Of a DNA stretch of 64,000 bases, positions 11,005-39,314 are shown piece after piece. The translations under genes were made by a program, and so were the position numbers. Each line of letters opens with the position of its first letter. Within the stretch, counting starts at the first letter, position 1. The notes below the pieces were generated by a model. The model did not search any database, had not been told where the DNA came from, and was given only the letters and a program-made list of their open reading frames with translations. The stretch is taken from positions 440,501 to 504,500 of the forward strand of contig NZ_CP040517.1 in the NCBI RefSeq assembly GCF_005849285.1, given 5' to 3'. This stretch comes from Luteithermobacter gelatinilyticus (GTDB taxonomy: Bacteria > Pseudomonadota > Alphaproteobacteria > Sphingomonadales > Emcibacteraceae).

Positions 11005-11211
11005 CTGGAGTGAATTGTGTATAGGTTGAACCATTCTGCTGGGCCAGACCGGCCCGGCCCTTTGGGTTGGCGGCTTGAGGCCGCTCACTTTATCAGACGC
11101 CTGGGTCAGACGCCTGGCCCGATGCCCCGCATCGCCCGGCGCCGTCTTTCGCGTGAGGCGGGCCGCAATCCGTCAACAGAATTGAGTCAACCTATGCACA
11201 ATTCACTCTAG
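11005..11211. mobile_element. MITE-like element, full-length copy 1
   Basis: About 207 bp bounded by inverted repeats of about 27 bp: CTGGAGTGAATTGTGTATAG at the left end (11005-11024) corresponds to the reverse complement of the right end, which finishes CACAATTCACTCTAG at 11211. Inside, a 12-base unit CAGACGCCTGGG/C occurs twice near 11104-11127. The right 128 bases (11083-11211) are about 90% alike to 38523-38650. No transposase is encoded; short open frames differ between the copies, so the unit looks non-coding. It lies between the pal terminator and cpoB. Confidence 0.65.
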
Positions 11212-11274
11212 AGTGATCGGTGATGAGAGGAGCGCCATTTTGTTTCATGAAGCTTCGCTCTACTATTCACTCTA
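11208..11274. repeat. Short CTAG palindrome abutting MITE copy 1
   Basis: Starts at the CTAG that ends copy 1. CTAGAGTGA (11208-11216) is matched by TCACTCTA at 11267-11274. The interior is unrelated to copy 1 but carries AGAG...CTCT complementarity. It separates copy 1 from cpoB. Confidence 0.45.
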
Positions 11275-12266: not shown

Positions 12267-12274
12267 CAAGGGCC

Positions 12275-12332
12275 AGAATGAAGTGACAGGGTCCTGTGTG
12301 CATGGTGTCAATCTTATCACAGTTCATTCTAG
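12275..12332. repeat. CTAG-family palindrome, first of three before tilS
   Basis: AGAATGAAGTG (12275-12285) pairs, with one mismatch, with the reverse complement of CACAGTTCATTCT (12318-12330). The right side GTCAATCTTATCAC... is a diverged version of the right end of the MITE copies. It ends in CTAG at 12329-12332, into which the next palindrome appears inserted. Confidence 0.5.
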
Positions 12333-12406
12333 TGTGGTGAATTTGAAGTTCCTGTTATTGATTATGTCATACGACTTAGGAACTTCAAATTCAGAAACCA
12401 CACTAG
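12329..12406. repeat. CTAG palindrome A (25-bp arms)
   Basis: The left arm CTAGTGTGGT + GAATTTGAAGTTCCT (12329-12353) pairs perfectly with AGGAACTTCAAATTC (12378-12392) and ACCACACTAG (12397-12406). A 4-base AGAA bulge interrupts the right arm and the loop is 24 bases. This is not terminator-like: AT-rich, no T tract. Both ends are CTAG. Confidence 0.8.
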
Positions 12407-12420
12407 AGTCAAATAATTAA

Positions 12421-12495
12421 CTAGTCTTCTTGTTGACTCTGAAATTCGAATAGCCTGCTACAAATATGATACGAACTTCAGAGTCAGAAGACTAG
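12421..12495. repeat. CTAG palindrome B
   Basis: Same architecture as palindrome A but different sequence. CTAGTCTTCT (12421-12430) pairs with AGAAGACTAG (12486-12495); GACTCTGAA (12435-12443) pairs with TTCAGAGTC (12477-12485); TTCG pairs with CGAA beyond a single mismatch. A 4-base bulge (TGTT) is on the left arm and the loop is 23 bases. It ends 28 bases before the tilS start and may affect its expression. Confidence 0.8.
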
Positions 12496-39274: not shown

Positions 39275-39314
39275 CTAGAGTGAATTGAGTCAACCGATGT
39301 ACAATTCACTCTAG
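39275..39314. repeat. Perfect CTAG palindrome containing the spoVR stop codon
   Basis: CTAGAGTGAATTG (39275-39287), a 14-base loop, CAATTCACTCTAG (39302-39314): 13-bp perfect arms. Bases 39311-39313 read CTA on the plus strand and are the TAG stop of the minus-strand spoVR gene. It may also act as a weak bidirectional terminator between converging genes. Confidence 0.85.

Follow-up and report, generated by a model that had tools for sequence, protein, structure and literature searches.

The sequence between cpoB and tilS of Luteithermobacter gelatinilyticus at positions 12329-12495 is very probably a single mobile unit, namely a non-autonomous element (MITE) of the IS870-like subgroup of IS630/Tc1-mariner that moves as a whole into the TA of CTAG. 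Positions refer to the window, which is the whole stretch of 64,000 nucleotides that was analysed. The assignment was based on the structure of the unit, its copy number, its insertion at CTAG with an empty site for comparison, the similarity of its ends to those of autonomous IS630 elements, and the covariation of its arms.

Structure of the cpoB-tilS palindromes

Three palindromes are located between the end of cpoB (12266) and the start of tilS (12523). All three are real, the coordinates given in a preliminary description were exact or a few bases off, and the arms, bulges, and CTAG feet described there for the two larger ones, hairpins A and B, were reproduced. The palindromic region folds at -46.4 kcal/mol, compared with -24.2 +/- 3.3 kcal/mol for 200 dinucleotide shuffles (z = -6.65), none of which folded as well.

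Hairpin A (12329-12406) begins and ends with CTAG; its outer arm measures 10 bp, its inner stem 15-16 bp, and its loop 24 nt, and a 4-nt bulge is present in its right arm. Hairpin B (12421-12495) also has CTAG at both ends and a 10-bp outer arm; its inner stem is perfect over 10 bp and extends to 18 bp at 89%, its loop is 17-23 nt long, and a bulge of 3-4 nt (TGT or TTGT) is present in its left arm. The bulge is thus on the inner side in both hairpins, which are related as mirror images. The preliminary description regarded A and B as different sequences that are not copies of each other; the difference in sequence stands, but they are not unrelated, since their outer arms are 73% alike over 30 nt when compared as terminal inverted repeats.

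The complete element consists of A, a 14-bp spacer (AGTCAAATAATTAA; 12407-12420, forward strand), and B, and it measures 167 bp on the forward strand (12329-12495) including both flanking CTAG sequences; its extent was defined by its copies in the genome and by homologous units in dozens of other genomes. The outer arm of A (12329-12353, forward strand) and the outer arm of B (12469-12495, reverse strand) form the left and right terminal inverted repeats, respectively, and both are in register with CTAG. The inner arm of A (12378-12406, reverse strand) was recognized by repeat comparison and folding as an inverted copy of the outer arm with the 4-nt bulge (AGAA, at about 12393-12396) before its CTAG foot, and the inner arm of B (12421-12448, forward strand), with its bulge at 12431-12434, was delimited by repeat comparison, folding, and position-weight scoring. 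The left CTAG (12329-12332), which is common to the unit and to the end of palindrome 1, is the presumed target with its TA duplicated, as judged from removal of the unit and from the geometry of an empty site in genome G040, and the right CTAG (12492-12495) is the second copy of the target according to the unit copies, the empty site, and unit removal.

Copies in the genome of Luteithermobacter gelatinilyticus

Hairpins A and B were each compared by BLAST against the complete genome (3.15 Mb, one contig). This search for the arms, which had been proposed in the preliminary description, yielded many further copies: 14-15 near-full copies of each hairpin were found at the same places, in the same order, and 14 bp apart. 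Thirteen of these are contiguous 167-bp units with 87-100% identity, and three further copies are split by an insertion sequence (C1:2910682), split by another MITE (C1:941334), or have lost most of A (C1:3047692). The total of 16 full, split, or truncated copies are short, dispersed, and without coding capacity. Most of them are 97-100% identical, an indication of recent spread. In the copy split by an insertion sequence, an IS5-family element has entered precisely at the CTAG lying between A and B (L052:757-1556, corresponding to G000:C1:2910682-2911728).

Here and in dozens of other genomes A and B recur with their spacing fixed, which makes them the two halves of a single element of 167 bp. 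The preliminary description had instead proposed that different elements were inserted side by side. Its view of the sequences as non-autonomous elements was borne out, the independent insertion of A and B was not, and palindrome 1 probably represents an insertion of its own that preceded the unit. Independent small elements would account for the CTAG at both feet of each hairpin and for the few solo A-type hairpins of Brucella species, which carry CTAG at either end but lack a B partner (L230:5727-5804, Brucella pituitosa; L184:7675-7752). This explanation is nevertheless extremely improbable, given that the arrangement of A, 14 bp, and B is found in all near-intact copies of this genome and that 57 units elsewhere have a narrow spacer range and a mirrored bulge.

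Palindrome 1 and family C

Palindrome 1 (12273-12332) is weaker than A and B, with 11-bp arms containing one mismatch, CTAG at its right end, and CCAG at its left end. Comparison with the end of a second family of elements, family C (CTAGAGTGAATTGTGAATAGGTTG), gave matches at 19 of 24 positions for the right end and 13 of 24 for the left, and palindrome 1 is therefore probably a separate, older, decayed short MITE of that family; the unit landed in the CTAG bordering it. The family C end has 257 matches with up to 3 mismatches in the genome, and since family C ends also match those of two IS630 copies in the same genome, family C constitutes a second IS630 MITE family. Its elements abut or split 9 of the 16 unit copies at their CTAG feet.

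The two IS630 copies bordered by family C ends are autonomous elements, L133 (from G000:C1:3066139) and L134 (from G000:C1:115697). Their transposase reading frame is divided into two, which overlap around a run of A, an arrangement that points to programmed frameshifting. Further IS630-type MITEs or remnants of family C, bordered by CTAG or TTAG, were observed in the window at 11005-11211, 11208-11272, and 39275-39314, and the gap between pal and cpoB contains two family C elements with one CTAG in common.

Insertion at CTAG

A base-resolved empty site was obtained from two genomes of one genus, in which a unit located between two genes in G046 is absent from G040 and the flanks are 91-92% identical. 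The sequence CCCCGC-CTAG-(unit)-CTAG-ACGAAGG in G046 corresponds to CCCCCC-TTAC-GCGAAGG in G040, where the TA is kept and is present once. Built-in empty sites, in which the CTAG is restored, were provided by nested units: in Chelatococcus (L204) a unit has entered another at the CTAG that joins A to the spacer, and in L226 at the CTAG that joins the spacer to B. In-silico removal of the unit at cpoB-tilS leaves ...TTCATT-CTAG-CCGACAG. The earlier proposal of insertion at CTAG with restoration of a single CTAG is thus upheld by the G040 site and by the nested units; duplication of TA alone or of the whole CTAG gives the same outcome in sequence.

Relatives were also searched for an empty site at the locus itself, as the preliminary description had suggested. 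The spacing between cpoB and tilS is -10 to 74 bp in 26 relatives, compared with 256 bp here, and no palindrome was found in the cpoB-tilS gap of the f1 relatives. Among 31 sampled genomes of the same family, no unit was detected anywhere except for one weak 24-base match. Given the short gap in the relatives and the absence of the unit from the family sample, the palindromes at cpoB-tilS are a lineage-specific insertion. Conservation of the palindromes at this locus in relatives and a lack of further copies, the two outcomes that the preliminary description named as contrary to insertion, were both looked for and neither was seen. A search of the genus Sphingobium gave many extra copies and no clean empty site for the locus chosen, and the unit was present in all nine Roseibium plasmid records checked for an empty site.

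A conserved RNA or regulatory structure, such as a small RNA, an attenuator, or a terminator of the cpoB operon, could be proposed from the compensatory changes found in 31 of the 50 base pairs of the stems (see below). Relatives without the structure at cpoB-tilS, the many copies at unrelated loci, and a share of G-T wobbles no different from random expectation make this explanation very unlikely. Searches of Rfam gave no family above the gathering score, and the sub-threshold hits consisted of microRNA noise only.

Ends and candidate transposases

The genome contains only two DDE_3 transposases, both of the family C IS630 type with other ends, and no cognate transposase for the unit was found in it. 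A search for DDE_3 in 18 carrier genomes gave no match at all in 7. IS630 elements with ends matching those of the unit are present in other carriers as two tandem copies in a member of the Hyphomonadaceae (L349 and L353, genome G451) and as L357 in Sphingobium sp.; a related IS630 element is L352. A matching IS630 transposase is accordingly present in other carriers (G451 and G402) and was not found in the genome in question. The IS630-type origin suggested in the preliminary description is upheld by the autonomous IS630-family elements with matching ends. The transposases of the matching-end elements match the NCBIfam IS630 family with E values of 1e-82 to 1e-86, and the ORFs of L349, L352, and L357 stop at the TAG of the border CTAG, a feature of the IS870-like subgroup. 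Plasmid-borne IS630 elements with matching ends were found in Rhizobium, Bradyrhizobium, Sinorhizobium, Novosphingobium, Komagataeibacter, and others. The L349 and L353 copies (G451:C84) are arranged head-to-tail with one CTAG border common to both. Orphan arms near 1822299 and 1852274 in the genome of Luteithermobacter gelatinilyticus were considered as ends of an autonomous element and were rejected, being only decayed remnants.

A position-weight matrix was built from 23 insertion sequence ends, and other CTAG flanks in the genome (253 sites, three degenerate unit copies among them) served as background. The background had a mean score of -32.7 and, once the degenerate copies were set aside, a best score of -0.9. 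The outer arm of A scored 12.3 and the outer arm of B scored 29.2 (z = 5.4; none of the 253 background sites was as high). The inner arms scored at background level in register and regained most of the score when 3-4 nt were skipped; for the inner arm of A the values were -34.4 in register and -0.1 with 4 nt skipped. Within Sphingobium genome G402, a unit end and an insertion sequence end are identical at 22 of their 24 positions; in G451 the similarity is moderate (18-19 of 24). Terminal hairpins with an inverted inner copy were absent from the autonomous elements examined.

Distribution and class-wide architecture

A homologous unit with 69% identity and the same hairpins was found in a genome of another family. 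A degenerate hairpin pattern matched at least 116 stretches in the genome collection, nearly all with alphaproteobacterial titles; the matches listed include Brucella, Mesorhizobium, Bradyrhizobium, Nitrobacter, Hyphomicrobium, Caulobacter, Asticcacaulis, Sphingobium, Paramagnetospirillum, and others, and one among those listed is titled as an Acidobacteria bin. Dozens of genomes carry the unit, in the Hyphomicrobiales, Caulobacterales, Sphingomonadales, Rhodospirillales, and other orders. The unit is rare in the order of Luteithermobacter gelatinilyticus, where the strict pattern was found in 6 of 396 sampled genomes, and many Sphingobium genomes contain relatives with 76-88% identity.

A second-pass hairpin finder returned 57 non-redundant units. 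The architecture across the class comprises CTAG at all four feet, a bulge of 2-5 nt always on the inner arm, and a spacer of 11-18 nt (mode 13), and the length is 165-172 bp in nearly all units. Variant units at L191:1-336 and L202:7000-7207 have lost one hairpin from between its CTAG feet, as a precise or nearly precise deletion would do, and one spacer has an extra ACTAG, as imprecise excision from CTAG would leave (L223:2364-2381).

Proposed mechanism

Most likely, an IS630-type transposase provided in trans acts on the outer arms as its ends, and mobilisation by a transposase of the IS870-like IS630 class is inferred from the similarity of the ends. The two outer arms would be recognized as left and right transposon ends, and the transposase would cut at these ends and paste the unit into the TA of CTAG, which would be duplicated. 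The analogy is with ISY100, a member of the IS630 family, whose transposase suffices in vitro to excise it and insert it into TA (PMC2170065). In the present unit an inverted copy of each end folds with it to give a hairpin, and the bulge of 2-5 nt shifts this inner copy away from CTAG and out of register. Since the bulge separates the inner copies from CTAG, these should not be cut correctly; the bulge would disable the inner ends, the outer pair alone would work, and the whole unit would move. As no matching transposase is present, the copies of this genome are probably stranded and immobile today. MITEs often outlast their partner transposase, and a cognate transposase in the same genome is for this reason usual and not strictly defining.

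Arm pairing

Recognition by a transposase leaves, on its own, one feature of the unit unexplained: the near-perfect pairing of inner with outer arms, which autonomous elements do not need. When 47 units were aligned, pairing held for 97.7% of cells, double (compensatory) changes were present at 31 of 50 base pairs, and covariation scored three times as high as after shuffling. Stem sequences vary freely across the class while the hairpins persist. G-T wobbles account for 15 of 49 non-Watson-Crick cells (31%), which is the share expected from random change, so that the symmetry is kept at the DNA level; this argues against selection on RNA. The arms within one hairpin covary strongly, and A covaries weakly with B (0.657 versus 0.623 +/- 0.012 shuffled).

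An origin of the pairing in template-switch (quasipalindrome) correction, with no selection for hairpins and the element still an IS630-type MITE, has somewhat less than an even chance of being correct. Such correction can yield both the almost perfect covariation within hairpins and the weak covariation between A and B, and it has left visible traces in two copies of this genome (C1:2312872 and C1:3111324 in G000) and in L182:3377-3453, where an outer arm is altered to the inner sequence, bulge included, to give a perfect palindrome. Against this explanation, most units of the class still have the bulge, which means that correction would have to be incomplete or selected against. The competing explanation is selection for the DNA hairpin. 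A role of the hairpins as a selected transposition device, in which cruciforms extruded from the duplex or hairpins of the lagging strand, their bulge being fixed, would hide or disable the inner ends and enforce unit-length movement with an IS630/Tc1-type transposase, is a rather unlikely possibility; if true, it would define a structure-dependent class of Tc1/mariner-type MITEs across a whole bacterial class.

A further alternative is an element of the REP/BIME type, mobilised by a Y1 (RAYT) transposase acting on hairpins in single-stranded DNA. The strong covariation of the arms could be counted in its favour, as could the paired inverted hairpins, the bulge, and the tetranucleotide foot. 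The probability of this alternative is nonetheless very low, for the foot of the unit is CTAG and not GTAG, insertion at TA/CTAG is clean, the ends match DDE IS630 elements, just 6 of 14 carrier genomes gave a match to Y1_Tnp, and none of these Y1 genes has a hairpin within about 1.5 kb. The candidate RAYT/Y1 link was dropped, as no RAYT (Y1) gene in carriers is flanked by the repeats.

Comparison with known systems

The paired-hairpin architecture seems not to have been described before, as no earlier description was found in Rfam or in the literature searched, which took in few subscription papers. MITEs of the IS630 type are already a known kind; the distinguishing features are the four end copies, of which the inner two are out of register, and the hairpins that covary at the DNA level. 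They raise the question of whether DNA secondary structure or the register of the binding sites decides which ends a Tc1/mariner-type transposase uses, and the architecture provides a simple annotation signature for a common repeat.

RUP of Streptococcus pneumoniae, a MITE of IS630-Spn1, is an intergenic repeat of about 107 bp that has IS630-like ends, targets TA, and enters other insertion sequences (PMC2229807). The present element shares the IS630-like ends and the TA target, but it is about 167 bp long and has two mirrored hairpins, CTAG at four feet, and displaced inner end copies. The CTAG target reportedly supplies the stop codon for the large ORF of IS870 (Fournier et al. 1993, cited in PMC6471742), and IS630 reportedly prefers TA within CTAG (Tenzen and Ohtsubo 1991, cited in PMC2170065). 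The present element resembles both in its CTAG target and end sequences; it differs in having no gene, whereas the autonomous ends have no inverted inner copy. Bru-RS1 and Bru-RS2 of Brucella are palindromic repeats that serve as insertion sites for IS711, with the target YTAR (PMC2266754), and are 103-105 bp long (PMC2267715). They are likewise alphaproteobacterial palindromic repeats hosting insertion sequences, comparable to the IS5-family element in the middle CTAG of one copy described here, and are set apart by their published length from units of 165-172 bp. BIMEs, which are pairs of REP sequences associated with RAYT, are similar in that two bulged hairpins face each other as mirror images across a short linker, whereas the present element has no RAYT association and inserts in the manner of DDE-type elements at TA/CTAG.
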